Assembly (NCBI GenBank): GCA_025965875.1
Contig: JAOPWD010000407.1
Coordinates: 1-44,595, forward strand
Direction of reading: 5' to 3'
Source: Pseudonocardiales bacterium
GTDB lineage: Bacteria; Actinomycetota; Actinomycetes; Mycobacteriales; Jatrophihabitantaceae
Length of the DNA stretch: 44,595 bases
The translations under genes were made by a program, and so were the position numbers. The notes beneath the pieces are model-generated. The model did not search any database. It was given only the letters and a program-made list of their open reading frames with translations, and was not told the DNA's origin. Each line of letters opens with the position of its first letter. Positions within the stretch are counted from its first letter, which is position 1. Of this stretch, positions 1 through 15,390 are shown piece by piece.

Positions 1-1345
1 CCGCACGGTGGCCCACGACCCGGTCCACGAATGCGCCGGCCGCGCCGAGGGCAGCGCGCGGGTCAAGGCATTCGGCGATCTGATCGGGCGTGAGGTGCTC
101 GGTCACCCGCGCATCGGCGAGCAGTGCGTGCTCCAGGCTGAGGCCGTGTTCCCGGCCGGCCAGGCTCGCCTCGTAGACGACCTGGTGGGCGACGTGCTTG
201 CCGACGTGCTGCGCCAGCGCCCGCATCACCGGCTCGGACAGCACGTACCCACCCATGGCCGCGACGTTCGCGCTCATCCGCTCGGCGTCGACCTCGAGGC
301 CATCGAGCAAGCGGCAGGCATACGTCAGAGCGGCGCCGGTGAACAGACAGATCTCGGGGAACACAGCCCATTCCGTCTTCCACGCCCGCCCGTCGCGTTC
401 GTGCTCGTGGATCATCGCCTCGACGCTGACGCTCGCGTCGGCCCGGACGACGCGAGCGAGGGTTACGAGGTGTTCGGACAGTTCGGGATTGCGCTTGTGC
501 GGCATGGTGATACTGCCGACCTGCCCCGGCGAGAACGGCTCGCGCAGCTCGCCGATCTCGGGGCGCTGCAGGTCATAGACCTCCTGGCCGATCTTGGCCA
601 GGGTGGACGTCACCATGGCCAGCAGGCCCATGAACTCCGCCACGCCATCGCGGGCGGTGATCCACGGAACCTCAGGCTCGACCAGCCCGACGCGGTCGGC
701 GAAGGCATCCAGCAACGGCAGTGCGGCGTCACCCCAGAACTCCATCGTGCCCAGCGCGCCCCCGAGTTGCGCGACCTCCCAGCGATGCCGCCCGTCGGCC
801 AACCGCTCGCAGTGCCGGCGCAGCTCGGCTGCCCACACCGCCGCCTTGAACCCGAACGTGATCGGCAGACCCGGCTGGCCGTGGGTGCGCCCGCACATGA
901 TCGTCTCGCGATGCTTCTCGGCGAGGGCGACGGCCGCCGACACCGCATGTTCCAGGTCGCGGTCGAGGATCACACCGACTTCGCGCATGACCAGCGAGGT
1001 CCAGGTGTCGGAGACATCCTGGACGGTGGCGCCGTAGTACACCCACTCCCGCGCCCGCTCCGGCAACACCTCCTGCAGGCATCGGATCAGGCCGAGGGTG
1101 GAATGGCCGGTGGCCCGAGTCTGCTCCGCGACCTTCTCCAGGTCGAGCAGGTTCACGTCGGCGTGGACGCGGATCTCCCGTGCTGCGTCCACCGGGATCA
1201 GGCCGACCTCGGCCTGGGCTTCGGCCAGCGCGGCCAGGATCTCCAGCCACGACTGGACGCGACCCTCGTCGTCGAGCAGGCGCTTGATCTCCGGCGTTCC
1301 CCACAAGTGCCCGTACAGGATCGAGTCAGCGAGGTGGGCACTCAT
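1..1345 (-). CDS. Aspartase/fumarase-superfamily lyase, C-terminus cut by window edge (candidate CoM biosynthesis XcbC1/XcbD1-like)
   Basis: The first 448 codons are visible; the gene runs off the left edge. Starting at ATG 1345 the protein begins MSAHLADSILYGHLWGTPEI. It has the superfamily landmarks: HSTLG near residue 81, YGATVQDVSDT near 104, GRTHGQPG near 152 (the conserved His) and the signature loop GSITMPHKRNPE at 277-288. These are typical of adenylosuccinate lyase and carboxymuconate cycloisomerase relatives. It lies 12 bp after the preceding gene in an operon led by phosphosulfolactate synthase. In Xanthobacter autotrophicus Py2, XcbC1 and XcbD1 of bacterial CoM synthesis are members of this superfamily, and XcbC1 eliminates phosphate from phosphosulfolactate to give sulfoacrylate. 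I therefore infer a CoM-pathway lyase. A purine-pathway purB or catabolic cycloisomerase role cannot be excluded from sequence alone. A GAGGCGGGG ribosome site precedes the start. Confidence 0.85.
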   Translation of the reverse strand, partial: MSAHLADSILYGHLWGTPEIKRLLDDEGRVQSWLEILAALAEAQAEVGLIPVDAAREIRVHADVNLLDLEKVAEQTRATGHSTLGLIRCLQEVLPERAREWVYYGATVQDVSDTWTSLVMREVGVILDRDLEHAVSAAVALAEKHRETIMCGRTHGQPGLPITFGFKAAVWAAELRRHCERLADGRHRWEVAQLGGALGTMEFWGDAALPLLDAFADRVGLVEPEVPWITARDGVAEFMGLLAMVTSTLAKIGQEVYDLQRPEIGELREPFSPGQVGSITMPHKRNPELSEHLVTLARVVRADASVSVEAMIHEHERDGRAWKTEWAVFPEICLFTGAALTYACRLLDGLEVDAERMSANVAAMGGYVLSEPVMRALAQHVGKHVAHQVVYEASLAGREHGLSLEHALLADARVTEHLTPDQIAECLDPRAALGAAGAFVDRVVGHRA

Positions 1346-1357
1346 CGCGGCCCCGCC

Positions 1358-2269
1358 TCAGCCAACCGCGGCTTCGGCGCGCCGGTCGACTCCGGTCAGC
1401 CAGCGCAACGCCTGCCTGATTTCGTCGAGGTTGGCGCCCCACGGGACTACTGCGGTGCCGTCGCCGAAGTCGGTGCCCCGTTCCAGCAGGCAGCACTTGG
1501 TGAGGGTCATCGTGGCCTGCGAATCCGCTGGCGCGGCGCGCCGCCGCGGGCAGATGTCTACCCGGGGCGGCTCGTCACCGTAGAAGTGCTGGTGGAACTG
1601 CAGCGACCGCTCGCAGCCGACCATCAGCCAGTCGCGTCTCTCCGGCGGCCGGGTGTCGAGGAACGAGACCTCGTCCCCGACGTCGACTCCCGCGCCGCGG
1701 CAAGGCAGCAGGTAGTGCCCCGCAGGGTTGTCGGCGGCCAGTTCGCGGATATCCACCGCGTCCAGGACGAGATCGATGGGCGGCAGGTCCTCGTCGAACG
1801 CGATCACCTGCTCGGCCATGGCGAACAGCTTGGGCGGCTGCGGCGGCACCACCTCGGTCACCCGGATGGTGATCGGGGCGGGCTCCCAGATGAAGTTCAC
1901 GTGCTCGTAGCGTCCCTGCACGGCGTAGGCACGGGTGCCCGCGCGACGGTAGGGCAGCGTCGCAAGGGCTAGCGCCGTGGCGTTGCTGACATCAGTCTCC
2001 GGTGCCGTCACGTAGACGACCTCGTCCGGCCCGGCCAGCACCCTGACCTCGACCACCGGGGAGAACAGCGGCTCGGTCGATGCCTTGCGGACGGCCACGA
2101 TCGCGCTCGCCGTGCCGTTGCGCAGCAGTAGGTAATCGGTGCGGCGATATACCTCGCGGCCGAGCAGGTACGGCACGAGATCCATTTCGGTGAGCGGGAC
2201 GTCGACCTCTTGAACCGACAGCCCGCGGTAGGGCCGGGTGATGGTGTTGGGCGCCGGATCTTCGATCAC
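1358..2269 (-). CDS. Conserved hypothetical protein with a Cys/His-rich C-terminal half, inside the CoM biosynthesis operon
   Basis: This is a 303-aa protein I do not recognise. The GTG start at 2269 sits 2 bp after the comA stop, so translation is probably coupled; the next gene follows 12 bp downstream. There is no signal peptide or membrane segment. All five cysteines lie between residues 190 and 260 (C190, C219, C240 and the pair C259-C260), with an FHQHFYG stretch at 225-231. This spacing would suit a metal or Fe-S site, or a thiol-transfer role, but matches no motif I can name. Because it sits between phosphosulfolactate synthase and an aspartase/fumarase lyase, a step or accessory function in CoM synthesis (sulfur insertion, decarboxylation, sulfonate handling) is a reasonable inference. 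It is not shown by the sequence. The four described Xanthobacter Xcb proteins include no family that I can equate with it. Confidence 0.85.
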   Translation of the reverse strand: MIEDPAPNTITRPYRGLSVQEVDVPLTEMDLVPYLLGREVYRRTDYLLLRNGTASAIVAVRKASTEPLFSPVVEVRVLAGPDEVVYVTAPETDVSNATALALATLPYRRAGTRAYAVQGRYEHVNFIWEPAPITIRVTEVVPPQPPKLFAMAEQVIAFDEDLPPIDLVLDAVDIRELAADNPAGHYLLPCRGAGVDVGDEVSFLDTRPPERRDWLMVGCERSLQFHQHFYGDEPPRVDICPRRRAAPADSQATMTLTKCCLLERGTDFGDGTAVVPWGANLDEIRQALRWLTGVDRRAEAAVG

Positions 2270-2271
2270 GG

Positions 2272-3039
2272 CTACACCCGCACGCCCGCCAGCGCAGTGT
2301 CGGCCCGCAGGCCCAGCCGGAGTGTCTCGAGCGCGAGGACCTCCTCTGGCGGCACGTTGCCCAGGTTGACGCCTGCCCCGAACCGCTTGACGAACCACGC
2401 CTGTTGGGACTTGCGTGGTGCCTCGAAGATGACCCGGTCGACCGGGATGCGCTCGGCGATCGCGTCGACCAGGTCGGCGCGCACGCTGCCGTCGCCGTGG
2501 TAGAGCCCGACCGTGCCGCTCTCGCGGCCCTCGGCAACGACCCAGGACGCGCCGGCGTCGAGGTCGGTCGCCATCTCGGCCAGCCATTCCTCCGTGACCA
2601 CCGGCGCGTGGTCGTCCTTGGCGCCCGTCTCGGCGAACACGGTGAGTCGGGCGGACAGTTGGCCCACCAGTTCGGTCTTGCGCTCGGACGTCATTGCCTC
2701 GAGCCCGTCGGACACCTCGACCGCGCCGATGCCGACGGAAGCGGCCCACTCGCACAGTTCGTCGACCCGGCCCTGGGCGACGCATATCTCGAGCAGCGTG
2801 CCGCCGAGCGTCACCAGGACGCCGGCCTCGCTGCACAACGCGACGCGGTGCTTGACCGTCGGGTCGATGTAGGCGATGCCCCACCCGATCTTGATCACGT
2901 CGATCAGGTGCCCCGCCTGGGCCAGCAGGGCTTCGAGGGCTGCTGTCGTCATTCCCTTGTCGAGAACATGGGTCAGGCCGCGGCTGCGCGGCTTCTGGTC
3001 ACGCTCGGGTAGCTCGAGGAAGTTCGGACAGTCCCACAC
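2272..3039 (-). CDS. comA: Phosphosulfolactate synthase (ComA/XcbB1 family)
   Basis: It is predicted to add sulfite to phosphoenolpyruvate, giving (R)-phosphosulfolactate, the first committed step of the PEP-dependent coenzyme M route in methanogens and in Xanthobacter (XcbB1). The 255-aa TIM-barrel protein carries the family's conserved blocks in order: RGLTHVLDKG, DVIKIGWGIAYI, LGGTLLEI, VEVSDG, VFAETGAKDD, VAEGRESG and IFEAPRKSQQAWFV, then VNLGNV. The length is normal for the family. The GTG start at 3039 is supported by a GGAGG site 9 nt upstream. It is the first gene of a minus-strand operon and diverges from the CoM-utilisation genes across a 188-bp promoter region. Some bacteria carry ComA homologues for other sulfonate products, but the downstream neighbours make CoM the best assignment. 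Confidence 0.9.
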   Translation of the reverse strand: MWDCPNFLELPERDQKPRSRGLTHVLDKGMTTAALEALLAQAGHLIDVIKIGWGIAYIDPTVKHRVALCSEAGVLVTLGGTLLEICVAQGRVDELCEWAASVGIGAVEVSDGLEAMTSERKTELVGQLSARLTVFAETGAKDDHAPVVTEEWLAEMATDLDAGASWVVAEGRESGTVGLYHGDGSVRADLVDAIAERIPVDRVIFEAPRKSQQAWFVKRFGAGVNLGNVPPEEVLALETLRLGLRADTALAGVRV

Positions 3040-3171: not shown

Positions 3172-3227
3172 ATGGGGTCTCGCCGCATGCCAGACCTACC
3201 GTGAGCCACGAACGATGGGAGTGCCTC

Positions 3228-4622
3228 GTGCACCAGCGACTGGTTGTGGTCGGCGGCGGTGCGGCCGGGATGTCGGCCGCGTCCGCGGCGCGCCGGCTGG
3301 ATCCCGACCTCGACATCGTCGTGTTGGAGGCCGGTGGGTACGCCGCATACGGCATGTGCGGCCTGCCCTACTACCTCAGCGGCGTCGTGGCCGGGGCCGA
3401 GGCGTTGCTCGCCTACCCTCCGTCGTTCTTTCGGGAGCAACGCCGCGTGGATCTACGCCTGCACACCCCGGTCACCAGGCTCGACCCCGATCACCAGGTC
3501 GTGCATTTCCGCGAGAACGGCCGCGACGCCCGGCTGGAGTACCACCGGCTGATCGTCACGACGGGGGCGACGCCGGTCGTGCCGCCCTTGCGCGGCCTCG
3601 ACGACCCATACGTGTTCACCGTGCGGACGATGGAGGACGCGATCAGCCTGCGCAGCCTGATCGACGCCGGGCACATCGGCCGGGCGCTGATCGTCGGCGG
3701 CGGCTACATCGGTCTGGAGATGGCCGAGGCGATGGCCGCCCGCGGGGTGAAGGTGACGCTGGCCGAGGCGCTGCCCGCCTTGATGCCCAACCTGGACCCG
3801 CCGATCTCGGAGCTGGTCGAGGAGGAGGTGCGCCGACACGGCGTGGACCTGCGCCTGGGCATCAGCCTCGAGCAGGTGCGCCGCACGCCCGACGGGCTCA
3901 AGGCGATCCTGGGCGGCAAGTCCGTCCCAGTGGACGTCGTCGTGGTGGCCGTCGGCGTACGCGCCGGGGCGACGATCGCCGCCGAAGCCGGCGCCGCGAC
4001 CGGTCCGGGCGGCGCGTTGCTGGTCGACGACCAGATGCGTACGTCGCTGCCCGATGTCTACGCCGCGGGGGACTGCATCGCGCCCTTCCACCGCGTGCTT
4101 GGCCGGCCGGCGTTCGTGCCGTTGGGGCCGGCCGCCAACAAGACCGGTCGGGTCGCGGGCACGGTTGCCGCCGGCGGGCAGGCCCGGTTCACCGGCATCG
4201 TCGGCACCGCGGTCGTCAAGGTGTTCGACCTGGCTGTGGCCCGCACTGGTCTCACCCTGGGCGAGGCCATGGCCGAGGGACTGCCGGCAGTCGCCACCGA
4301 CACCGTCGGCAAGTCCCGGGCCAAGTACTACCCGGGCTCGGACCCGGTCCACGTCCGGCTCGTCCACGAGACCGGCGGCCGGCTGCTCGGGGCGCAGATG
4401 GTCGGCGGCGACGGGGTGGCCAAGCGCATCGACGTGGTCGCCGTGGCGTTGCAGGCCGGCTTCGATGTCGACGAACTGGCCGGCGCCGATCTCTCCTACG
4501 CGCCGCCGTATGCGCCGGTCTACGAACCGATCCTGCTCGCGGCCCAGGCCGCTCAGGCGAAATCCGCCCCGGACCGCCCGGCCGAAGCGCCAAGTCACGC
4601 CGCGGCCGGGTCGCGACGATGA
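3228..4622 (+). CDS. FAD-dependent pyridine nucleotide-disulfide oxidoreductase, CoA-disulfide reductase-like
   Basis: This 464-aa flavoprotein has an N-terminal dinucleotide fold (VVVGGGAAGMSAA), a central NAD(P)H fold (ALIVGGGYIGLEMAEAMAARG), the FAD-binding segment VYAAGDCIAPF and a C-terminal dimerisation domain. A single active-site cysteine lies in YGMCGLPYYLSG (C44), the arrangement of CoA-disulfide reductase and NADH oxidase, which use one Cys instead of a redox pair. It opens the operon of CoM-dependent enzymes, so reduction of CoM disulfide, mixed CoM disulfide or another low-molecular-weight disulfide is a sensible inference. CoA disulfide is the family default. The GTG at 3228 was chosen because GGGAG lies 6 nt upstream; an in-frame GTG at 3201 would add nine residues. 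The gene ends in an ATGA overlap with the next. Confidence 0.82.
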   Translation: MHQRLVVVGGGAAGMSAASAARRLDPDLDIVVLEAGGYAAYGMCGLPYYLSGVVAGAEALLAYPPSFFREQRRVDLRLHTPVTRLDPDHQVVHFRENGRDARLEYHRLIVTTGATPVVPPLRGLDDPYVFTVRTMEDAISLRSLIDAGHIGRALIVGGGYIGLEMAEAMAARGVKVTLAEALPALMPNLDPPISELVEEEVRRHGVDLRLGISLEQVRRTPDGLKAILGGKSVPVDVVVVAVGVRAGATIAAEAGAATGPGGALLVDDQMRTSLPDVYAAGDCIAPFHRVLGRPAFVPLGPAANKTGRVAGTVAAGGQARFTGIVGTAVVKVFDLAVARTGLTLGEAMAEGLPAVATDTVGKSRAKYYPGSDPVHVRLVHETGGRLLGAQMVGGDGVAKRIDVVAVALQAGFDVDELAGADLSYAPPYAPVYEPILLAAQAAQAKSAPDRPAEAPSHAAAGSRR

Positions 4623-5371
4623 CCGCCGAGCCGCACGACCCGGTGAGCAGCACCCCCCGGGTCGCCGTCGTGACCGGTGGCGCCTCGGGCATCGGCCGAT
4701 CCACCGCGACGCGGCTGAGCGCCGACGGCTGCCGGGTCGCCGTCCTCGACCTCGGCGACGCGGGGGGGACCGACGCTGAACTCACGCTGCGGACCGACGT
4801 GACCGACCCGGAGGAGGTCGAGACTGCGTTCAAAGAGGTCGTGGCCACGTTCGGCCGCATCGACGTCCTGGTCAACAACGCCGGCATCACCGGGTCGGCC
4901 GAGGCCACGCGCTGCCACGAGACGCCGATCGACGAGTGGGATCGGGTGCAGGCGGTCAATGTGCGCGGCCCCTTCCTCTGCACCCGCGCCGCGTTGCCGA
5001 CGATGCTGCGGCAGGGCTCGGGCCACATCATCACGGTGGCCTCGGTGGCCGGCCTGATCGCCTTTCCGGGACGGTGCGCCTACACGACGTCCAAGGGTGC
5101 GGCGGTGCAGTTCACCAAGTCTCTGGCCGTCGACTACGCCAGCGCCGGCATCCGCGCCAACGCCGTGTGTCCCGGCTTCGTCGAGACGCCGATGACGCAA
5201 TGGCGCCTCGACCAGCCGGAGCTGCGCGCGCAGGTCGAGACCAAGATCCCGCTCGGCCGTGTCGCGCAACCTGAGGACATCGCCGACGCCATCGCCCTGC
5301 TCGCCTCCGACCGGCTGGTTTACATGACGGGTCATTCGCTCGTGGTCGACGGCGGCTGGACCGCTTGGTAG
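4619..5371 (+). CDS. xecD: 2-(R)-hydroxypropyl-CoM dehydrogenase-like SDR
   Basis: This is a 250-aa classical SDR predicted to oxidise the R-hydroxyalkyl-CoM thioether to the ketoalkyl-CoM with NAD+. It has the cofactor motif TGGASGIG at 19-26, NNAG at 86-89 and the catalytic set Ser142, Tyr155, Lys159. The residues known in Xanthobacter R-HPCDH to hold the CoM sulfonate appear at the same numbers as I recall them: Arg152 in FPGRCAYTTSKG, and Arg196 and Arg203 in TQWRLDQPELR. That stretch is nearly identical to the Xanthobacter enzyme. Ordinary SDRs lack these arginines, so the assignment is specific. The start overlaps the upstream stop as ATGA. Substrate chain length cannot be read from the sequence. 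Confidence 0.88.
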   Translation: MTAEPHDPVSSTPRVAVVTGGASGIGRSTATRLSADGCRVAVLDLGDAGGTDAELTLRTDVTDPEEVETAFKEVVATFGRIDVLVNNAGITGSAEATRCHETPIDEWDRVQAVNVRGPFLCTRAALPTMLRQGSGHIITVASVAGLIAFPGRCAYTTSKGAAVQFTKSLAVDYASAGIRANAVCPGFVETPMTQWRLDQPELRAQVETKIPLGRVAQPEDIADAIALLASDRLVYMTGHSLVVDGGWTAW

Positions 5372-5405
5372 TCAAGGAAATTCCCATCGAGAAAGGACGG
5401 CGACT

Positions 5406-6179
5406 ATGACCGGACGATTGGCCGACCGGGTGGCATTGGTGACGGGTGGCGGCTCGGGGATCGGGCTGGCCGCGGCCAATCTGTTCGCGGCTGAAGGGGC
5501 GGCCGTGGCCGTCGTGGACGTCCGGGCCGAGGCAGCCGACGAGGCTGCGGGCAAGATCGTCGCCGAGGGTGGCCGGGCGATCGCCCTCGTCGCCAACGTG
5601 GCCGACGCCGCCGAGGTGGCGGCGGCAGTGGATCGAGCCGCCGCAGAGTTCGGCCGGATCGACGTCCTCTACAACAACGCCGGCGTGAACAGCGCGGGCT
5701 CGGTCGCCGACGCCGCCGAGGACGACTGGGACCGCTGCTTCGACGTCAACGTCAAGGGCACCTTCCTGTTCTCGCGTGCGGTCGTCCCGCACCTGCGCGC
5801 TGCCGGCGGCGGGGCGATCGTCAACCAGGGCTCGGTAGCCGGCCTCGTGGGGGTCCCGAACTTCGCCGCGTACTGCGCGGCCAAGGGCGCAGTGGTGGCG
5901 CTGACCCGGTCGATGGCGATCGACCTCGCCCCGGACGGGATCCGGGTCAACGCCATCTGCCCGGGCACCGTGTTCACCCCGCTCATGGAGCCCATGCTGC
6001 GTGCCCGCGGCGACGGTGACCTCGCGGCCGGGCTGGCCAAGACCGTCGTCAAGTACCCGATCGGCCGCCTCGGCAACCCGGAGGAGATCGCCCGAGTGGC
6101 CTTGTTCCTGGCCAGCGACGACGCCTCGTTCGTCACTGGATCCATCGTGACCGCCGACGGCGGGATGACCGCGCAGTAG
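5406..6179 (+). CDS. xecE: 2-(S)-hydroxypropyl-CoM dehydrogenase-like SDR
   Basis: This is a 257-aa SDR with TGGGSGIG at 13-20, NNAG at 90-93 and the catalytic set Ser143, Tyr156, Lys160. The segments SVAGLVGVPNFAAYCAAKGA, VKYPIGRLGNPEEIA and the C-terminal GGMTA closely resemble Xanthobacter S-hydroxypropyl-CoM dehydrogenase. The pairing with an R-specific partner gives the stereo-complementary set needed to use both epoxide enantiomers. In the Xanthobacter enzyme Arg211 and Lys214 bind the sulfonate. Here the Lys is kept (Lys216) but the Arg position appears to be Thr213, with Lys212 next to it, so the sulfonate pocket may be altered. AAAGGA precedes the ATG. Function in the S-branch is inferred from similarity and context. 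Confidence 0.8.
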   Translation: MTGRLADRVALVTGGGSGIGLAAANLFAAEGAAVAVVDVRAEAADEAAGKIVAEGGRAIALVANVADAAEVAAAVDRAAAEFGRIDVLYNNAGVNSAGSVADAAEDDWDRCFDVNVKGTFLFSRAVVPHLRAAGGGAIVNQGSVAGLVGVPNFAAYCAAKGAVVALTRSMAIDLAPDGIRVNAICPGTVFTPLMEPMLRARGDGDLAAGLAKTVVKYPIGRLGNPEEIARVALFLASDDASFVTGSIVTADGGMTAQ

Positions 6180-6205: not shown

Positions 6206-7126
6206 GTGGCGTTCCATCTCGATACCGACAAGCTCGTCGACCTCGACCGGGCCGTGCGCTCGATCGAGGACGGCGCGTTGGTGGCCCTCGGCGGCGGGCT
6301 GTCGGCCCGGCTGCCGATGGCACTGGTGCGTGAACTGATCCGCCAGGGCCGCAGCGGGTTGCATGTCGTCGGCTCCGCCCACAGCATCGACGTCGACGTG
6401 CTCATCGCGACCGGCACAGTCACGGTCTGCGAGGAGAGCTACGTCGGGTTCGAACAGGATCTCGGGCTGGCGCCCGCGTACCGGCGGGCGGCGGAGACGG
6501 GCACCATCGAGGTCCGCGAGAGCTGCTGCGTCACCATCCTCACCCAACTGCGGGCGGCCGAGTTCGGGCTGCCGTTCCTGCCGGTGCGGGGCGTCAAAGG
6601 CTCCGACATACGCCGGCTGCATCCCGAATACCGCGAGGTGGTCTGCCCGTTCACCGGCGAGACCTTGGTCGCGGTCCCGCCGTTGCGTCCGGATGTGGCG
6701 CTGATCCATGCCCCCCTCGGTGACCGGCGCGGGAACCTGCACCTCGATCAGCCCTACGTCCTCGACGAGCGCTTCGCGGCCGCCTCGCGCAACGTCATCG
6801 CCACGGTCGAGCGGGTCGGTTCGGCCGAGGAGGTGGCCGCGGCCGGCGTGACGATCCCGGCGCACCTGGTGAGCGCGGTGGCCGAGGTGCCCTACGGCGC
6901 GCACCCCGCGTCGTGTTACCCCGCGTACGCCTACGACCGCGCCCACCTGGGCGAGTACGTGCGAGCGGCCACCGCCGGTGGCTCCGAGCTGGCCGAATAC
7001 CTGGACCGTTACCTCACCGGTCAGCCGACCGAGGAGGCCTACCGAAAGCTGGTCGGAGCCGACCGGCTGGCGGCACTGGGCCAGTGGTCGGAGTCGATCG
7101 ACGCCTGGAAGGAGCTGTTCCGGTGA
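6206..7126 (+). CDS. CoA transferase subunit A (family I, glutaconate CoA-transferase alpha-like)
   Basis: This 306-aa protein has the family I alpha-subunit layout: GALVALGGGLSARLPMALVREL near residues 23-45, GSDIRRLHPEYREVVCPFTGE near 132-152, and the DVALIHAPLGDRRGNLHL block shared by glutaconate and 3-oxoacid CoA transferase alpha subunits. The GTG start follows an AGGAGGTAAGGAG purine stretch. It pairs with the beta subunit 49 bp downstream. In the CoM pathway the end product is a beta-keto acid such as acetoacetate, so transfer of CoA to that acid is the likely role. The actual donor and acceptor are unknown, and some members of this branch (IpdAB) act as hydrolases on ring-derived CoA thioesters. 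Confidence 0.8.
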   Translation: MAFHLDTDKLVDLDRAVRSIEDGALVALGGGLSARLPMALVRELIRQGRSGLHVVGSAHSIDVDVLIATGTVTVCEESYVGFEQDLGLAPAYRRAAETGTIEVRESCCVTILTQLRAAEFGLPFLPVRGVKGSDIRRLHPEYREVVCPFTGETLVAVPPLRPDVALIHAPLGDRRGNLHLDQPYVLDERFAAASRNVIATVERVGSAEEVAAAGVTIPAHLVSAVAEVPYGAHPASCYPAYAYDRAHLGEYVRAATAGGSELAEYLDRYLTGQPTEEAYRKLVGADRLAALGQWSESIDAWKELFR

Positions 7127-7175
7127 GTGAGCATCGTAGCGAGCCCCAGCGAGCGAGGAGCGGAGCGAACACACG

Positions 7176-8033
7176 ATGAGCGCTCGCGCGAAGAGCAATG
7201 AACAGTGCTTCTCGATCGACGAGTGGTTCGTGGTCGCGCTGGCCCGCACCATCCGTGACCGTGAGGTCGTCTTCCACGGCTTCGGCAGCCCGTGTGCGCA
7301 GGTGGCGATGCACGTGGCCCGGCACAGCCACGCGCGGGACATGATGCTGGTCGAGGGCGCCACGTACTCCATCAACCCCGAGCCGCCGTTCATCCCGCCG
7401 ACCGGAAATGATCTGGCCCTGGAGCAGGGCGCGTCCTACCGGATGCGGTTCGAGGAGTTCTTCGACGCTGCGATACGCGGTGACGTCGACCGGATGTTCC
7501 TCTCCGGCGGCCAGATCGACCGGTACGGCAACACTAATGTCACCGCCGTCGGCCCGCTCGAGCGTCCCAAGGTGAAGCTTGGCGGCGGGGGCGGTGGCTG
7601 CAACCTCGCGGCCACGATCGGCCACCTGTCGCTCTGGACGACGCGGCACCGCTCGGGCCGCACGCTGGTCGAGCACTGCGACTTCATCACCGACATGGGC
7701 CACCGCACGCCGGCTGGCAGCCGGGCCGAGCTGGGCTTCGCCGGGGGCGGGCCGGAGTGGTTGGTGACCGAACTCGGTGTCTTCGACTTCGACGACGGCG
7801 GGCAGGCCCGCCTCCGTCAGCTGTTCCCCGACGTCAGCGTCGACACGGTGCGGGCCGCGACGGGCTTCGAGGTGCAGGTGGCGTCGGATCTGCGCTCAGT
7901 GCCGTTGCCGAGCAGCGCGGAGATCGCCGCACTGCGGGCCGTGGACCCGTTGGGCGTGCGACGTTCTGAGTTCGCACCGGAGGAGCTGCGGCGCACGTTC
8001 AGCCACGGACAGAGCGTGGGATGCGCCTGCTGA
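7176..8033 (+). CDS. CoA transferase subunit B (family I, glutaconate CoA-transferase beta-like)
   Basis: This 285-aa partner of the preceding alpha subunit shows FLSGGQIDRYGNTN near residues 108-121, the GGGGGGCNLAA glycine run near 132-142 and a C-terminal ELGVFDFDDGGQARL block, all typical of beta subunits. A LVEGA segment near residue 58 may hold the catalytic glutamate that forms the glutamyl-CoA intermediate, but I could not align it rigorously. That residue decides whether this is a transferase or a hydrolase-type relative. GGAGCGAAC precedes the ATG. Its last 13 nt overlap the start of the acyl-CoA synthetase gene, so the two are probably co-translated. Confidence 0.78.
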   Translation: MSARAKSNEQCFSIDEWFVVALARTIRDREVVFHGFGSPCAQVAMHVARHSHARDMMLVEGATYSINPEPPFIPPTGNDLALEQGASYRMRFEEFFDAAIRGDVDRMFLSGGQIDRYGNTNVTAVGPLERPKVKLGGGGGGCNLAATIGHLSLWTTRHRSGRTLVEHCDFITDMGHRTPAGSRAELGFAGGGPEWLVTELGVFDFDDGGQARLRQLFPDVSVDTVRAATGFEVQVASDLRSVPLPSSAEIAALRAVDPLGVRRSEFAPEELRRTFSHGQSVGCAC

Positions 8034-10183
8034 GTGCGGCGCTGACCGCACTGTTCGAGCCGCGGCGAGTGGCTCTGGTCGGGGCGTCGGACCAGCCGGG
8101 CAAGACCGGCGAGCTGATCTGGCGCAACCTGTCCGGCTTTCCCGGCGAGGTCGTCCCGGTGACCCGGTCGGACTCGGTTGCCGGCTGCAAGGCCTACCCG
8201 ACGCTCTCGGCGGTCCCGGGCGACATCGACCTGGCCGTGGTCGTCGTGCCTGCCGCGGCTGTCGCCGACGTGGTGCGCGACGCGGGGGCCAAGGGCGTAC
8301 CCGTCGCGGTGATCATCAGCGGTGGCTTCGCCGAGGTGGGGCCGGGCGGCGCGCAACTGCAGCAGCAGGTGCTGGCCGCCGCAAGGGCTGGCGGCGTGCG
8401 GCTCGTCGGGCCGAACTGCTTCGGCGTGCAGAACTGCGACCTTCCCCTGAACGCCTCCCTGGCTGCCGGCACGCCGCGCGGCGGTGGCGGGATCAGCCTG
8501 GTCACCCAGTCCGGGGCGTACGGCATGGCAATTCACTCGCTCGGCGTCGACGAACGGGTCGGGTTCGCCAAGGTGTATGCCGCGGGTAACCAGGCCGACC
8601 TGAGCGCGGCCGAATTACTCGACTATTTGGGGGACGACCCGGCCAGCCGCACGTTGTGCTTCTTCCTTGAATCCCTGCCGGACGGCCGGGCCTTCTTCGA
8701 CTCGGCGTGCGTCGTGACGCCTCGGGTGCCGGTCATCGTGGCCAAGACCGGGCGCTCGGCGGCCGGCGCCCGCGCCGTCCAGTCACACACCGCCGGGCTG
8801 GCCGGCAGCGAACGGATCTGGCGGGCCGCCTTCGACCAGGCCGGCGTGATCCTGGCCCGATCGGGCCTGGAGATGATGGACGTGGCGCGGGCGCTGGACA
8901 CGCAACCACCGCCCCGTGGCCCCCGGGTCGGCATCATCACGAACTCAGGCGGGACGGGCGTCGAACTCGCAGACCTGCTCGCCGACGAAGGCGTGCACGT
9001 CCCCGAGCTGTCGGCTGCTCTGCAGGCGGAGTTGCGCGAGGTCTTGCCGCCGTTCGCCAGCGCCCGCAACCCGGTGGACATCACGCCGGTGTGGGACCGG
9101 TTCACCGAGCTGTATCCGCTGTTGGTTGAGCGGCTCGCCCGCTCCGGTGAGGTCGACGCCGTCGTGCCCATCCTGCTGCAGCGCTCCGCCGATGAGCGCG
9201 TCGCTCGCGCGGTGGCCGACGCGGCCGGCCGGCTGCGGACCGACGCGGTGCCGGTGCCCGTCTACGTGTGCTGGGTGGCGCCGCGCACGTCCCGAACCGG
9301 GGCCGACCTGCTCCAGACCGCCGGGGTGCCGTGCTTCGAATGGCCCGAACGCACGGCTCGGGCGGTCGGACACGCCGTCCGCTATGGGGTCGTGCGCTCG
9401 AACGTCCGGCCCCCGCAGGTTGCTCCGGCCAAGCCGGCTGACGTCATGACGTTGCCCAGCGGCTGGCTCGACCCGGATGCCGGCGCAGCCCTGCTCGCCG
9501 CGTCGGGAATCCCTACTGTGCTTGGACAAACGTGCGCAACCGCCGAGGCTGCAGTCGCTGCGGCCGAGGAGCTCGGCTACCCGGTGGTGGCCAAGGTGGT
9601 GCACCCCGACCTGCTGCACAAGAGTGCGGCGCAAGGCGTGCACCTGGGGCTGACCGATCGCCATACCGTCCACGCCGCGGCCACCAAACTGCTGGGGATG
9701 GGCGCCGGTGCATGCGTACCTGTCCAGCGTCAGGAGAGCGCCGGTCTCGAGGTCATCATTGGCGGCATCCGCGACCCGCAGTTCGGCCCGGTCGTGCTGG
9801 TCGGCCTGGGCGGAGTGTTCGTCGAGGCGATCGACGACGTTGCTGTCGGCCTAGCCCCACTGCGCCACGACCAAGCCCGGCGCCTGCTCGCGGACCTGCG
9901 CGGTCATCACGTGTTCGACGGAGCGCCCGGCAGCGAACCGGCCGACCTGGATGCATTGTGCGCGCTGATCTGTGCCGTGGGGGACGTGCTCGTGGCGGTG
10001 CCCGAGATCGCCGAACTGGACCTCAATCCGGTGCTCGTCAACGGGTCTGCCTGCACCGCGGTTGATTGGCGAATTCGCATCGATGACCTCGTGGGAAATG
10101 GCCAAAATCCGCCCGCCCAGGACGAGACTCTCGGCCAGGTTTCGCCCTCTGAGGGGGGAGAATCGCGCCCCGGATCTCCGTAG
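8021..10183 (+). CDS. ADP-forming acyl-CoA synthetase (acetate--CoA ligase family, fused alpha-beta)
   Basis: This 720-aa protein has an N-terminal CoA-binding Rossmann domain (VALVGASDQPGKTGELIW), succinyl-CoA-synthetase-like ligase domains with the phosphohistidine region QSHTAGLAGSERIW (His256), and a C-terminal ATP-grasp domain (YPVVAKVVHPDLLHKS, then VIIGGIRDPQFGPVVLVGLGGVFVE and ELDLNPVLV). It should interconvert an acid, ATP and CoA with acyl-CoA, ADP and phosphate. Its start overlaps the CoA transferase beta gene by 13 nt. Together the two provide alternative ways to activate the acid made by the CoM pathway. The acid preference cannot be predicted. The last 25 residues are Gly/Pro/Ser-rich and look like a loose tail. 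Confidence 0.87.
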   Translation: MRLLSAALTALFEPRRVALVGASDQPGKTGELIWRNLSGFPGEVVPVTRSDSVAGCKAYPTLSAVPGDIDLAVVVVPAAAVADVVRDAGAKGVPVAVIISGGFAEVGPGGAQLQQQVLAAARAGGVRLVGPNCFGVQNCDLPLNASLAAGTPRGGGGISLVTQSGAYGMAIHSLGVDERVGFAKVYAAGNQADLSAAELLDYLGDDPASRTLCFFLESLPDGRAFFDSACVVTPRVPVIVAKTGRSAAGARAVQSHTAGLAGSERIWRAAFDQAGVILARSGLEMMDVARALDTQPPPRGPRVGIITNSGGTGVELADLLADEGVHVPELSAALQAELREVLPPFASARNPVDITPVWDRFTELYPLLVERLARSGEVDAVVPILLQRSADERVARAVADAAGRLRTDAVPVPVYVCWVAPRTSRTGADLLQTAGVPCFEWPERTARAVGHAVRYGVVRSNVRPPQVAPAKPADVMTLPSGWLDPDAGAALLAASGIPTVLGQTCATAEAAVAAAEELGYPVVAKVVHPDLLHKSAAQGVHLGLTDRHTVHAAATKLLGMGAGACVPVQRQESAGLEVIIGGIRDPQFGPVVLVGLGGVFVEAIDDVAVGLAPLRHDQARRLLADLRGHHVFDGAPGSEPADLDALCALICAVGDVLVAVPEIAELDLNPVLVNGSACTAVDWRIRIDDLVGNGQNPPAQDETLGQVSPSEGGESRPGSP

Positions 10184-10243: not shown

Positions 10244-11353
10244 ATGCGAATCGGTTCTCAGGACGTACTGCTCCCCACTGCGATGGTGGGCAACTACCCG
10301 AACCCGCGCTGGTACGACGGGCAGGCCTTCGCCACCTTGCCCAAGGGCGAGTTCATCTTCGACGCCATCAGCCGCGAGGCCTACGAGGACGCCGTCGGCG
10401 CCATCGTGCACGACCAGGAGGCGGCCGGCCTCGACATCATCAGCGACGGCAAGGTCTACGGCGGCGACTCCCCGTACGGCCAGATCCTCTACCACTACAT
10501 CGAGCGGATGACCGGCTACAAGCTGTCCGGCCCGCCGATCGGGCTGCCGATCTACTCCACGCTCTACGCGCCGACCTGTGTCGGCGAGGTACGCCGGGAG
10601 TACCCGTTCCACACGGCGGCACTGCGGGCGGTGCGCAAGGCGACCAGGAAGCCGGTCAAGATCTCCTACACCGGCATCCAGGTTCTCGCCGCGGCTACGA
10701 ACAACCAGTACTACAAGGAGACGAAGGAACTAGCGATGGCGATCGCGAAGGCCTTCAACGAGGACTTCAAGGAACTGGCCGACCTGGGCTGCGACATCAT
10801 CCAGGTCGACGAGTTCGTCTGGCCCTACGGCATGGGTGACTGGGAGGTCGAGGTTCTCAACGCGGCCATCGAGGGCGTCGGCTGCCAATTCTGGGTGCAC
10901 ACGTGTTGGGGCAACTACTCCGGCACGCCCGGCTACTTCCCGGACGATGAAGAGCGGGAGAATGGCGCCTGGGTGCTCGACCACCGGCCCGCGGCGGCGC
11001 CGGCGCCGGCGCGCGCGCAGGGCATCTTCCCCCAGGTGAAGGAAGCCAACATCGACGCCCTGAACTACGAGGTCGGCCGCACCGGCCCGGATGACCTCAA
11101 GCCGCTGCTCGATCACGAATGGCAGAAGAACTTCGTCGCCGGAATCATCGACGTCAAGAGCACGGTCACCGAGACGGCCGACGAGGTCGCCGAAGCGATT
11201 CGCCAGGTGCTCGAGTTCGTCCCGGCCGAACGGCTCGGCCTGAGCACCGACTGCGGGTTGATCAACCTGCCGCGGATGATTTCGGCGGGCAAGCTGCGGG
11301 CGCTGGCCGACGGCGCCGCCATCGTCCGGGCTGAGCTGGAGTCGAAGAAGTAG
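10244..11353 (+). CDS. xecA: Epoxyalkane:coenzyme M transferase-like, MetE-family zinc protein
   Basis: This 369-aa protein has the C-terminal methionine-synthase (MetE) fold that epoxyalkane:CoM transferase shares. The expected zinc ligands H-X-C...C are His219, Cys221 (VHTCWGN) and Cys337 (STDCGLINLPR). The acidic IIQVDEF segment at 185-191 is also conserved in the fold. EaCoMT activates the CoM thiol on zinc and opens the epoxide ring, which is the entry step to the hydroxyalkyl-CoM dehydrogenases encoded upstream. The length matches known EaCoMTs (about 370 aa) and is much shorter than full MetE (about 750 aa). A Pro/Ala-rich insertion at 248-260 is unusual. AAAGGGG lies upstream of the ATG. 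A core-type methionine synthase is the alternative; the CoM neighbours argue against it. Confidence 0.85.
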   Translation: MRIGSQDVLLPTAMVGNYPNPRWYDGQAFATLPKGEFIFDAISREAYEDAVGAIVHDQEAAGLDIISDGKVYGGDSPYGQILYHYIERMTGYKLSGPPIGLPIYSTLYAPTCVGEVRREYPFHTAALRAVRKATRKPVKISYTGIQVLAAATNNQYYKETKELAMAIAKAFNEDFKELADLGCDIIQVDEFVWPYGMGDWEVEVLNAAIEGVGCQFWVHTCWGNYSGTPGYFPDDEERENGAWVLDHRPAAAPAPARAQGIFPQVKEANIDALNYEVGRTGPDDLKPLLDHEWQKNFVAGIIDVKSTVTETADEVAEAIRQVLEFVPAERLGLSTDCGLINLPRMISAGKLRALADGAAIVRAELESKK

Positions 11354-11532: not shown

Positions 11533-12150
11533 ATGCCGATGCTGCCCAGTTCCGTTGCCGTGGGAATTCCGGGCGTCGATCTCGCCCCCGGCGACCATGT
11601 GTGCGTGTTTTATCCGGGCTTGGCCGAGCGCAACGAGATCCTGATCCCGTACCTGCGTGCGGGCCTGCAAGCCGGCGACAAGTGCGTCTGCGTCGTCGAC
11701 GCCGACGAGCCGGACGACGTCGTTTCGGCGTTGGGGCCCGATGTCGACCTGGGCGGGCGACTGGGCCGCCAACAACTCGAGGTTCAACGCTCACAGGACA
11801 CCTACCTCAAGGGCGGCGCCTTCTCCACCGAAGCAATGCTGGAGTTCTGGGATCGCGAGGTCGGCGGCGCGGTGGAGGGCGGCTTCAGTTTCGCTCGGGC
11901 CGCCGGCGAGATGACGTGGGCGCTGCGCCAACTGCCTGGAGTGGATGAGCTGATCGGGTACGAATCGCGACTGAATCAGTTCCTGCCGCGCTACCCGCAG
12001 GTCATTCTATGCTTCTACGAACTCGACATGTTCAGCGGCGAACTGCTGGTCGACGTGCTCAAGACGCATCCCAAAGTGCTGCTGGGCGGCATGGTTCTCG
12101 ACAATCCGTACTACTTGGAGCCCGACGAGTTCCTGGCCTCACGGAACTGA
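11533..12150 (+). CDS. MEDS (DcmR sensory) domain protein
   Basis: This 205-aa protein consists almost wholly of a MEDS domain (methanogen/methylotroph, DcmR sensory). It shows the opening GDHVCVFYPGLAERNEILIPYLRAGLQAG-type pattern (residues about 20-48), CVCVVD, and the closing LPRYPQVILCFYELDMFSGELL followed by HPKVLLGG. Such domains sense small, often hydrocarbon-related ligands in DcmR-like regulators. There is no DNA-binding domain here. The stop lies 2 bp before the PucR-type regulator start, so sensor and regulator are probably made together and may interact. The position in the CoM island suggests it senses an alkene, epoxide, CoM thioether or similar; this is inference. Confidence 0.8.
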   Translation: MPMLPSSVAVGIPGVDLAPGDHVCVFYPGLAERNEILIPYLRAGLQAGDKCVCVVDADEPDDVVSALGPDVDLGGRLGRQQLEVQRSQDTYLKGGAFSTEAMLEFWDREVGGAVEGGFSFARAAGEMTWALRQLPGVDELIGYESRLNQFLPRYPQVILCFYELDMFSGELLVDVLKTHPKVLLGGMVLDNPYYLEPDEFLASRN

Positions 12151-12152
12151 GC

Positions 12153-13841
12153 GTGACGGTCACCGCACCGGAGGCCACCCGGGCAGACACGGAGCTGCGC
12201 AGCCAGCTCTCGGACCTGCAATGCCTGTTGATGCTGTCGATGCTGATGACCGAGAGCGGCGACGAGGGCAAGATCCTGCAGCTCGCCGCCACGTCGGTGC
12301 CATCGTTCGGTCACACCCATCTGATCGGCGTGCGCTTTACCGACGGCAACTGGTGGGGGCCGGGGCCTGCCGCGGCGACCGAGGGTCTGCGCGACGAGGT
12401 CCAGGCGCAGGTGGCGCTGCTCGATGCGAGCGGTGGCGCGATAGCGGTGGCCGGCCAGGGCTGGACCTGGGCGTTACCACTGCGGGTGTTCGCCGGTCAC
12501 CTCGGTTACTTCATCGTTGCGGCGGCGAAAGAGCCCGCTGCGTCAGAACAGTTCCTGTTGCGCGTTCTCGCGCAACAAACCGGTGTGGCGCTCGGAAACT
12601 CGCGCCTGCACACAAAGGAGCGGTCCTCGGCTGAGGAGTTGCGGGCCGCGAACGCCGCGCTGGCCGAGACCGTGCGTGCCTTGGAGCAGTCGACCCAGAT
12701 CCACGATCGGTTCACCCGGGTGGCCATGGCTGGCGAAGGGCAGGACGGTGTGGCCCGAGCTCTACATGAGCTGACCGGATACCCGGTGGCCGTGGAGGAT
12801 CGCTACGGCAACCTGCGGGCGTGGGCCGGACCTAACCGTCCCGACCCGTACCCGAAGGATCCGCAGGCGCGGCGCGAGCAGATGCTGCGGCGCGCGCTGC
12901 GCGAAGGTCGCCCGATCCGCGAGGGTGGCCGGCTGGTGGCGCTGGCCAGCCCGTCGGCCGAAGTGCTCGGGGTGCTCGCGCTGATCGACCCGGCCGGTGC
13001 GGTCGGCGACCGTGAGCAGATCGCCATCGAACATGGCGCCACCGTCCTGGCCATGGAGCTGGCCCGGCTGCGCAGCCTGGCCGAGGCGGAGTTGCGGCTG
13101 CGGCGCGATCTGGTCGAGGAGTTGCTGTCCGGCACCGAGGAGGAAGGCGCCGTGGCCCGGGCGCAGGCACTTGGTCATGACCTGGAGCAGCGCAACCGGG
13201 TCGTGGTGGCCGAGGGGCGCGGACGCGTCAAGAGTCAGGAGCCGTTCTTCCACGCCGTCCGCCGTGCTGCGCGCGACCTGCACGTCGGCTCGCTGCTCGT
13301 CGCCCGCGGTGACTCCGTCGTGCTGATCTCGGACGCCGACCTGCCGTGGGAGCGATTCCGGATGGCGATCCTGACCGAGCTGGGTGGCGGCCGGTGCAGC
13401 CTCGGAGTCGGTGGCTGGTGCAGCCATCCGCGCGACCTGCCGCGCTCCTACCGCGAGGGCCAGTTGGCGTTGCAGATGCAGGGCATCGCGCACGGCAAGG
13501 ACCGGGCCACCTGCTACGACGACCTGGGTGTGTACCGGATTCTGTGCGAGGTGCAGGACGGCTCGAGTGTCGAGCGCTTCGTGCGGCAGTGGCTGGGCAC
13601 GTTGCTGGAGTACGACGAGCGCAAGCACTCCGACCTGGTCACCACGTTGACCCAATACCTGGAGTGCGGCGGCAGTTACGACGCCACGGCGCTGGCGCTG
13701 TCGGTGCACCGCAGCACGCTGAAGTACCGGCTGCAGCGGATCCGCGAGATCTCCGGGCACAACCTCACCGATCCCGACACCAACTTCAACCTGCAACTGG
13801 CCACCCGCGCCTGGCGCACCCTCCAAACCCTGCAAGCGTAG
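12153..13841 (+). CDS. PucR/CdaR-type transcriptional regulator with GAF-like sensor
   Basis: This 562-aa protein starts at GTG 12153, 2 bp after the MEDS gene. The N-terminal part (about 15-150) looks like a GAF domain, ending in FLLRVLAQQTGVALGNSRL. A coiled segment rich in Ala/Glu follows, then a second sensor-like region (YPVAVEDRYGNLRAW to GVLALID). The C-terminus is the PucR helix-turn-helix: LVTTLTQYLECGGSYDATA, LSVHRSTLKYRLQRIREISG and the closing DPDTNFNLQLATRAW. Regulators of this family usually activate catabolic operons. With the MEDS partner it is the obvious candidate controller of the CoM genes on both sides. The ALDH gene converges on it with an 18-bp gap. Confidence 0.85.
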   Translation: MTVTAPEATRADTELRSQLSDLQCLLMLSMLMTESGDEGKILQLAATSVPSFGHTHLIGVRFTDGNWWGPGPAAATEGLRDEVQAQVALLDASGGAIAVAGQGWTWALPLRVFAGHLGYFIVAAAKEPAASEQFLLRVLAQQTGVALGNSRLHTKERSSAEELRAANAALAETVRALEQSTQIHDRFTRVAMAGEGQDGVARALHELTGYPVAVEDRYGNLRAWAGPNRPDPYPKDPQARREQMLRRALREGRPIREGGRLVALASPSAEVLGVLALIDPAGAVGDREQIAIEHGATVLAMELARLRSLAEAELRLRRDLVEELLSGTEEEGAVARAQALGHDLEQRNRVVVAEGRGRVKSQEPFFHAVRRAARDLHVGSLLVARGDSVVLISDADLPWERFRMAILTELGGGRCSLGVGGWCSHPRDLPRSYREGQLALQMQGIAHGKDRATCYDDLGVYRILCEVQDGSSVERFVRQWLGTLLEYDERKHSDLVTTLTQYLECGGSYDATALALSVHRSTLKYRLQRIREISGHNLTDPDTNFNLQLATRAWRTLQTLQA

Positions 13842-13859: not shown

Positions 13860-15272
13860 TCAGCGGCCGTACTTTTGCCAGTAGGCGCCGAAGAGTTCCT
13901 CTTCGCTGACCGGGCTCGGGCTGATGGGCCGCGACACCCACGTGAGGTTGACGAAGTGCCGGGCGTTGACGTTCTCGGTGGTGATGTTGCCGCCCCAGGT
14001 GCCGCAGCTCAGGCTCAGCGTGAACGGCAGGCCGTTGCGTGGGCTGCCGGCGCCCTCGTTGAGGTTCTGGTTGACGAGGACGCGCGCGGTTTTCGTGCCG
14101 AACGCCAGCGCGTCAACGTGGTCGTCGCGACTGGTGTGGATGCCGCAGGTGTGCCCGATGCCCTGATAGCCGGTGATGGCATTCACCTGCTCGACCGCGT
14201 TCTCGATGCCGTCGGCATAGCGATACACGGCAAGCACCACGGAGAGTTTCTCGCCCGAGAAGGGATGTTCGGGGCCGACGCCGTCCTCTTCGACGATGAG
14301 GAAGCTGCGGTCGTCGATTGTGAACCCGGCCAGCTCGGCTATCGCCTGCGCTGACTTGGCGATGACGTCGGGCGTGGGCACCGGGCCCCCGTCGGGCCAC
14401 ATCCGTTTCTGCAGCAGGGCTTTCTCCTCCGCGTTGCACAGGTGTCCGCCGCGAGCGACGAGCCGGTCCAGCAGGTCCGAGTAGATCCCGGCCTCGGCCA
14501 CGACGGCGTTGTCGGCCAGACAGCTGGTGGCGTAGTCGAAGGTCTTCGCCATGACGATGGCCGCCGCCGCGTCGTCCAGGTCGGCGCTCTCGTCGACGAC
14601 ATGGACGGCGTTACCGACCCCTACTCCGTAGGCGGGCGTCCCGGAACTGTAGGCGGCCTTGACCATCCCCGCGCCGCCGGTGGCGACGACGAGATCAACC
14701 TGCTTCATCAACTGCTGGGTCTTGGCGATCGACGGGCTGGGCAGCATCTGCACGAGGTCGGCGGGCGCGCCGACCTCGGCGCAGGCCTCGCGCATGAAGT
14801 CCACCACGGCAGCCGTCGTGTCGGTGGTGCGTGGGTGTGGCGCCATGATGATCGCGTTGCGGCCCTTCAGCGCGAACAGCGCCTTGACCGGCGGGGTGGC
14901 GTCCGGGCCGGTGGTGGGGATCAGCGCGGCGACCACTCCGACCGGCTTGGCGATCTTGACCAGGCCCCGGTCGGGGTCCTCCTCGACGACGCCGACCGTG
15001 CGGACGGCGCGCATGTCCGACAGCACACCCAGGACGCGCTTATTGATCTTGGTGACCTTGTCTTCGTAGTTGCCGAAGCCGCCCTCGTCCACTGCCAACT
15101 TGGCCAGCGCCTCGGCCCGCTCGCTGCGCGCCACCGCCCACGCCACCGCGGTGCAAAGCTCGTCGACCTGGTCCTGCGTGTAGTCGGCGATGGCAGCCTG
15201 CGCGGTCCGAGCCCGGCCGACCACCTCCGCGACTTCCTGCTGCGCCGTGTCCTGCTGAGTCGTCTGGGTCAT
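13860..15272 (-). CDS. CoA-acylating aldehyde dehydrogenase (acetaldehyde/sulfoacetaldehyde dehydrogenase-like)
   Basis: This 470-aa aldehyde dehydrogenase is of the short acylating type. The catalytic cysteine is Cys251 in YATSCLADNAVV. IPTTGPDATPPVKALFALKGRNA at 118-140, VVATGGAGMVKAAYSSG at 195-211 and NQNLNEGAGSPRNGLPFTLSLSCGTWGGN near the end are typical of the EutE/AdhE/SauS branch. It would turn an aldehyde, NAD(P)+ and CoA into acyl-CoA. In this context sulfoacetaldehyde, a relative of CoM intermediates, or a short aldehyde from the substrate are both plausible; sequence alone does not decide. ATG 15272 was chosen; upstream in-frame extension lacks a ribosome site. It diverges from the 2-KPCC-like gene with 118 bp between starts. 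Confidence 0.82.
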   Translation of the reverse strand: MTQTTQQDTAQQEVAEVVGRARTAQAAIADYTQDQVDELCTAVAWAVARSERAEALAKLAVDEGGFGNYEDKVTKINKRVLGVLSDMRAVRTVGVVEEDPDRGLVKIAKPVGVVAALIPTTGPDATPPVKALFALKGRNAIIMAPHPRTTDTTAAVVDFMREACAEVGAPADLVQMLPSPSIAKTQQLMKQVDLVVATGGAGMVKAAYSSGTPAYGVGVGNAVHVVDESADLDDAAAAIVMAKTFDYATSCLADNAVVAEAGIYSDLLDRLVARGGHLCNAEEKALLQKRMWPDGGPVPTPDVIAKSAQAIAELAGFTIDDRSFLIVEEDGVGPEHPFSGEKLSVVLAVYRYADGIENAVEQVNAITGYQGIGHTCGIHTSRDDHVDALAFGTKTARVLVNQNLNEGAGSPRNGLPFTLSLSCGTWGGNITTENVNARHFVNLTWVSRPISPSPVSEEELFGAYWQKYGR

Positions 15273-15357
15273 GGGGAAACATTGCCGCGAACACGCCCGG
15301 AGACGGATCGACCCGGCAGGACGAACTTGGCTCAATGTGCCGTCCGGCTGGGACGTG

Positions 15358-15375
15358 TCGGACGCAGCGGTCCGA
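15358..15375. promoter_or_regulatory. Perfect inverted repeat in the ALDH / 2-KPCC divergent promoter
   Basis: TCGGAC and GTCCGA are separated by six bases, ending 15 bp before the ATG of the 2-KPCC-like gene. It lies within the 118-bp divergent promoter region and could be an operator. Six-base arms are short, so chance occurrence is possible. Confidence 0.3.
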
Positions 15376-15390
15376 ACGCATTGTTGCTGC

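Follow-up and report, generated by a model that had tools for sequence, protein, structure and literature searches.

Bacterial synthesis of coenzyme M (CoM) reportedly proceeds, according to the abstract of Wu et al. (PNAS, 2022), through sulfite addition, phosphate elimination, decarboxylation, thiolation and reduction. In Xanthobacter autotrophicus Py2, the genes of this pathway lie on plasmid pXAUT01 as a single run in the order A-B-C-D-E: Xaut_5051, which encodes XcbA, is directly upstream of xcbB1 (Xaut_5052), and Xaut_5052–5055 are xcbB, xcbC, xcbD and xcbE. The Py2 A, C, D and E proteins each score above the cut-off of their own NCBIfam model (470 bits against NF052538 in the case of Xaut_5051), and Xaut_5052 passes the ComA model. 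The plasmid carries further XcbA copies, one of which is split into two frames; this third copy (L014, 85918–86783) consists of overlapping frames that cover profile positions 2–170 and 171–291, and is perhaps frameshifted.

In CoM synthesis, Py2 XcbA has been considered functionally analogous to sulfoacetaldehyde dehydrogenase, an oxidoreductase (PMC11507031). A mycobacterial orthologue was named 'xcbF1' in 2021 and presented as an uncharacterised 308-aa protein that is likely to act in CoM synthesis; the passages of that paper that deal with the gene place it in vinyl-chloride-degrading mycobacteria and Nocardioides JS614, and draw no link to Py2 XcbA (PMC8727900). For archaea, the CoM synthase ComF (methanogenesis marker 16, COG1900), which contains cysteines, has been proposed to catalyse the last step of CoM synthesis (PMC12068725).

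A 303-aa XcbA protein in a complete CoM operon

We analysed a stretch of 44,595 nucleotides from a Pseudonocardiales bacterium (hereafter, the window), whose features are collected in Table 1. Between the phosphosulfolactate synthase gene comA (xcbB) and an XcbD-type lyase gene lies an open frame of 303 codons that starts with GTG. It begins 2 bp past the comA stop and ends 12 bp ahead of xcbD, and the coordinates thereby bear out both gaps given in an earlier note on this DNA. The product matched a single NCBIfam model, NF052538 ('XcbA family protein'; 436 bits over residues 4–293, cut-off 150), and a single Pfam family, DUF7714 (PF24830; 311 bits over residues 8–292, gathering score 25), which is matched by all 73 XcbA homologues as well. 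Xaut_5051 of Py2 is 44% identical to the window protein over 94% of the query and has all five cysteines, H123 and H226 in common with it. Orthologues from Nocardioides JS614 and Mycolicibacterium chubuense are 66–75% identical, and the JS614 and mycobacterial genes occupy the same position as in the window, between comA and an XcbD-type lyase gene.

On sequence grounds, the 303-aa protein is XcbA, a member of a family that already has a name and whose mechanism is poorly understood, and 'xcbF1' and Py2 XcbA are one family. The earlier note had proposed a CoM-pathway protein beyond the four described Xcb proteins. Its placement in the CoM operon and outside XcbB–E stands, whereas the label of an unknown, undescribed protein has been overtaken by the NF052538 match, the Py2 synteny and the 'xcbF1' report. 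Identity with XcbB, XcbC, XcbD or XcbE was rejected, as the protein matches no ComA, aspartase/fumarase or PLP-enzyme family. A literature search returned no paper that mentions DUF7714.

Table 1 Features of the window around xcbA
Feature	Coordinates	Strand	Basis
xcbD, aspartase/fumarase-superfamily lyase, truncated by the window edge	1..1345	-	NF052536, 731 bits (cut-off 600)
xcbA, 303-aa XcbA-family / DUF7714 protein	1358..2269	-	Translation; PF24830 and NF052538 matches
Codons of residues 190-260 (C190, C219, H226, H228, C240, C259, C260)	1490..1702	-	73-homologue alignment
Codon of invariant H123	1901..1903	-	73-homologue alignment
comA / xcbB, encoding phosphosulfolactate synthase; the operon begins with this gene	2272..3039	-	PF02679, 272 bits; TIGR03849, 232 bits (short of the 280 required for the archaeal equivalog)
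FAD disulfide oxidoreductase (XecC / CoA-disulfide-reductase-like), divergent catabolic operon	3201..4622	+	Pfam, NCBIfam
Two short-chain dehydrogenases	4619..6179	+	Pfam
Two CoA-transferase subunits	6206..8033	+	Pfam
Acetate--CoA-ligase-like protein	8021..10183	+	Pfam, NCBIfam
Epoxyalkane:CoM transferase-like (MetE-family) protein, expected CoM user	10244..11353	+	PF01717

The rest of the operon could be followed onto a second contig of the same genome, C110, whose last 127 bases are the first 127 of the window. Beyond xcbD, C110 carries genes for an XcbE-like PLP enzyme and then an XcbC-like lyase, which scored 325 and 420 bits, short of their 'exception' cut-offs (450 and 575), and whose assignment draws on synteny as well as homology. 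The overlap and the C110 genes together give the operon order comA-xcbA-xcbD-xcbE-xcbC, the same as in Nocardioides JS614. Written by letter, the window order is B-A-D-E-C, in contrast to the A-B-C-D-E run of Py2. The catabolic operon on the opposite strand diverges from the CoM genes in a layout common to Nocardioides JS614 and M. chubuense NBB4. xcbA belongs to a complete bacterial CoM operon that serves a divergently transcribed epoxyalkane pathway.

Further along the window, beyond the transferase gene, are genes for a PucR/CdaR-type regulator (12009–13841, plus strand) and an aldehyde dehydrogenase (13860–15482, minus strand), as in other alkene clusters. The scanned parts of the window showed no gene for an alkene monooxygenase; diiron monooxygenase genes are present on another contig (C99) of the same genome.

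XcbA and XcbD form a near-constant pair

To place this locus among its relatives, we scanned 84,980 species, each represented by a single genome, and kept the best 80 of 152 relatives. comA or xcbD directly adjoins xcbA in 79 of these 80 loci, and in the 80th the contig ends 150 bp from the XcbA match. With members of a single homologous family adjoining comA or xcbD so regularly, xcbA is a real gene. An epoxyalkane:CoM transferase at least 60% identical to the enzyme of the window or of Py2 was found in 50 of the same 80 loci. Seven loci, mostly from Acidimicrobiia MAGs (L063, L064, L066, L069, L070, L071 and L072), have xcbA-xcbD-xcbE(-xcbC) clusters with no comA beside xcbA; most of these clusters come with an epoxyalkane:CoM transferase, and in L070 comA is ~10 kb away.

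Co-occurrence was also followed in 397 evenly sampled Actinomycetota genomes, of which 10 carry DUF7714/XcbA. A strong XcbD match was obtained in nine genomes, all of them among the ten with XcbA (Fisher p ~2e-17), and in the tenth tblastn located XcbD beside XcbA, so that XcbA and XcbD behave as an obligatory pair. ComA was found in 8 of the 10 XcbA-positive genomes versus 30 of the 387 XcbA-negative ones (p ~1e-7); ComA alone is more widespread than XcbA and has other uses. Five of the XcbA-positive genomes (G093, G125, G168, G190 and G254) contain XcbA, XcbD and XcbC, and a search of each whole genome for XcbE gave no match at E ≤ 1e-40. In these five, XcbE appears to be replaceable, or the end product to differ.

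The pattern that would have refuted the reading of the earlier note, namely homologues without comA and among unrelated neighbours, or with varying Cys/His residues, was looked for in the 80 loci, the 397-genome sample and the homologue alignment and did not occur. With xcb genes beside xcbA in 79 of the best 80 loci and in all ten XcbA-positive sample genomes, we rejected the reading that xcbA is an unrelated gene that merely sits inside the operon; nothing was found in its favour, and the present data refute it, leaving it a vanishingly small probability. We consider it very nearly certain that XcbA belongs to CoM biosynthesis and has a role in the pathway.

Near-perfect pairing and adjacency with XcbD would also be expected if XcbA were a non-catalytic, structural or regulatory partner of that enzyme. 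This seems highly improbable in view of the many invariant polar or charged residues (R, K, H, C and W), which, within a compact fold of about 300 residues, resemble an active site.

Invariant residues and a confidently predicted fold

As the earlier note had stated, and as the translation confirms, all five cysteines and an HQH pair fall within residues 190–260. In an alignment of 73 homologues, C190, C219, C240, C259 and C260 are each 100% conserved, as are H123 and H226. The HQH pair corresponds to H226 and H228, with H123 and H185 being the histidines outside it; since H228 (93%) is replaced in a minority of homologues, conservation does not extend to the HQH pair as a unit. The conserved set of candidate Cys/His ligands comprises C190, C219, C240, C259, C260, H123 and H226, and these five cysteines and two histidines are invariant across Actinomycetota, Chloroflexota and Pseudomonadota. 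The probability that all five cysteines fall on invariant columns by chance is ~2e-5 if columns are treated as equal, a value that overstates the case because cysteines are more conserved than average. The same alignment revealed conserved arginines, lysines and tryptophans that would suit the binding of a doubly charged sulfonate; R15, R43, K147, R191 and R221 are among the conserved residues. A metal site in XcbA is plausible from this pattern of conservation.

The AlphaFold model of XcbA, built with 68 sequences, has a mean pLDDT of 91.7 and a pTM of 0.87. A Foldseek search of the model against the PDB yielded no convincing relative, with query-normalised TM-scores of at most 0.2 and rmsd values above 11 Å among the 50 matches listed, and a PDB sequence search (phmmer and profile) gave no match. 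Viral protein structures likewise contained no match to the model, and viral contigs no XcbA relative. Given a confident model and no PDB or viral match, the XcbA fold looks uncharacterised as judged against the PDB and viral protein structures. An RsmE- or DJ-1-like fold was rejected, with TM-scores of no more than 0.2 on the query. Searches against Pfam, PDB sequences and PDB folds detected no known redox cofactor domain in XcbA.

Like archaeal ComF, XcbA is a Cys-containing protein, but COG1900 is not the family that it matches: Pfam gave no match to a COG1900-type family, and neither did the PDB, as far as profile and fold searches show. In Methanosarcina acetivorans, a DUF7714 match scores above the Pfam cut-off and below that of NF052538, which points to a distant XcbA relative in a CoM-making archaeon.

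A proposed late reductive step for XcbA

In the pathway that we propose, XcbB would add sulfite to PEP, XcbC would eliminate phosphate to give sulfoacrylate, and XcbD would add a sulfur-bearing co-substrate, probably cysteine, as the NCBIfam name of its model NF052536, '3-sulfopropionylcysteine synthase', suggests. XcbA would then act on a product downstream of XcbD. If XcbD forms a cysteine adduct and XcbE is a C-S-lyase-like PLP enzyme, a reductive or decarboxylating step is left for XcbA. An invariant set this rich in cysteine speaks for redox or metal chemistry, and the persistence of XcbA and XcbD where XcbE is missing favours a step near XcbD; that 5 of the 10 XcbA-positive genomes lack an XcbE match at E ≤ 1e-40 would be awkward for an enzyme that acts on the XcbE product only. 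The most likely step would be a late reductive one that gives free CoM, in which an anion pocket formed by R15, R43, K147, R191 and R221 would hold the sulfonate and the five invariant cysteines, together with H226 and H123, would form a redox or metal centre. The comparison of Py2 XcbA with an oxidoreductase (PMC11507031) and the reduction among the steps reported by Wu et al. speak for such a step, and the lack of any known redox cofactor domain in the Pfam, PDB sequence and fold searches speaks against it. We put forward this late, probably reductive step with a Cys/His redox or metal centre tentatively, at somewhat short of even confidence, and the step, the cofactor and the roles of the residues are all predictions.

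XcbA might instead be the decarboxylase of the pathway, acting on the XcbD adduct or on sulfoacrylate, after which XcbE would free CoM by PLP-dependent C-S cleavage. The conversion of C3 sulfoacrylate to C2 CoM chemically requires a decarboxylation, XcbD is the most constant neighbour of XcbA among the best 80 of 152 relatives, and the retention of XcbA and XcbD in genomes without XcbE may mean that XcbA acts beside XcbD and before XcbE, itself a protein that resembles C-S lyases (D-cysteate sulfo-lyase and D-cysteine desulfhydrase). However, XcbA matches no decarboxylase family, and decarboxylation has no obvious need for five invariant cysteines. A UbiD-like decarboxylase in particular was rejected, as only two of the 73 homologues hit UbiD_C, with an E-value of ~0.1 that amounts to noise, and no UbiD structure was among the listed fold matches. 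Overall, we regard a decarboxylase as possible and on the unlikely side.

The cysteines could also serve to handle sulfur, with a Cys persulfide or an Fe-S or Zn centre supplying or activating sulfur for thiolation and no C-C chemistry taking place on XcbA. An invariant C259–C260 pair, the position of C219 where a helix of the model begins and the relationship of XcbE to cysteine desulfhydrases are in keeping with such a role. It sits poorly with the name of the XcbD model, which implies that cysteine itself is the co-substrate, and with the half of the XcbA-positive sample genomes that gave no XcbE match, and we therefore judge it distinctly unlikely.

A candidate second pathway in non-alkene bacteria

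Eight of the ten XcbA-positive genomes in the Actinomycetota sample showed no match to an epoxyalkane:CoM transferase near the xcb operon (loci L117, L118, L119, L121, L122, L125, L126 and L127). The operons there are flanked by OsmC-like, FdrA-like, AllG and carbamate-kinase genes, and the sets differ in how complete they are, as some of the contigs are short. Also nearby in the loci examined are genes for the glycosyltransferase MSMEG_0565, the radical SAM protein MSMEG_0568 and the AIR-synthase-like sll0787 (the last matched below its cut-off), a set that we take to be the Nit1C cluster; one such locus additionally encodes a nitrile hydratase subunit. The radical SAM gene was present in all eight of these genomes, absent from the remaining two XcbA-positive ones and present in 19 of 387 XcbA-negative genomes (p ~6e-9), and in six of the eight it lies on the xcbA contig, within ~18 kb. 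A plasmid of Methylocystis iwaonis (L004) carries an xcb operon that likewise has no transferase match and is flanked by the same gene families. Whole-genome searches at E ≤ 1e-40 found no XcbE in five of the eight.

In a maximum-likelihood tree, the XcbA proteins of the Nit1C context group with those of Methylocystis iwaonis and Pseudonocardia alaniniphila on one branch (support 100/99), apart from all alkene-type XcbA proteins; two long branches meet inside this clade, which makes its inner order unsure. None of the papers searched connects Nit1C or FdrA with CoM synthesis. The genomic association suggests a non-alkene role that is so far undescribed. We give about an even chance to the full reading, in which there are two kinds of CoM-type operon, the alkene kind of the window and the Nit1C-linked kind, and the product of XcbB-C-D-A, be it CoM or a similar sulfonate thiol, serves a second pathway in non-alkene bacteria, with XcbA, apparently of a new fold, as its core.

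Discussion

The window contributes a new sequence to a known family, and the mechanism of that family is still worth testing. Its analysis settles the annotation by uniting under one family the mycobacterial 'xcbF1', the label 'hypothetical protein', DUF7714 and Py2 XcbA; this family occurs nearly one-to-one with XcbD. XcbA is the least understood protein of bacterial CoM synthesis, and it now comes with a testable residue set of five cysteines and two histidines and with a confident model that has no solved relative. Of broader interest are the fold, which looks uncharacterised, and the second type of operon. Should that second context prove real, coenzyme M would no longer be confined to methanogens and alkene degraders.
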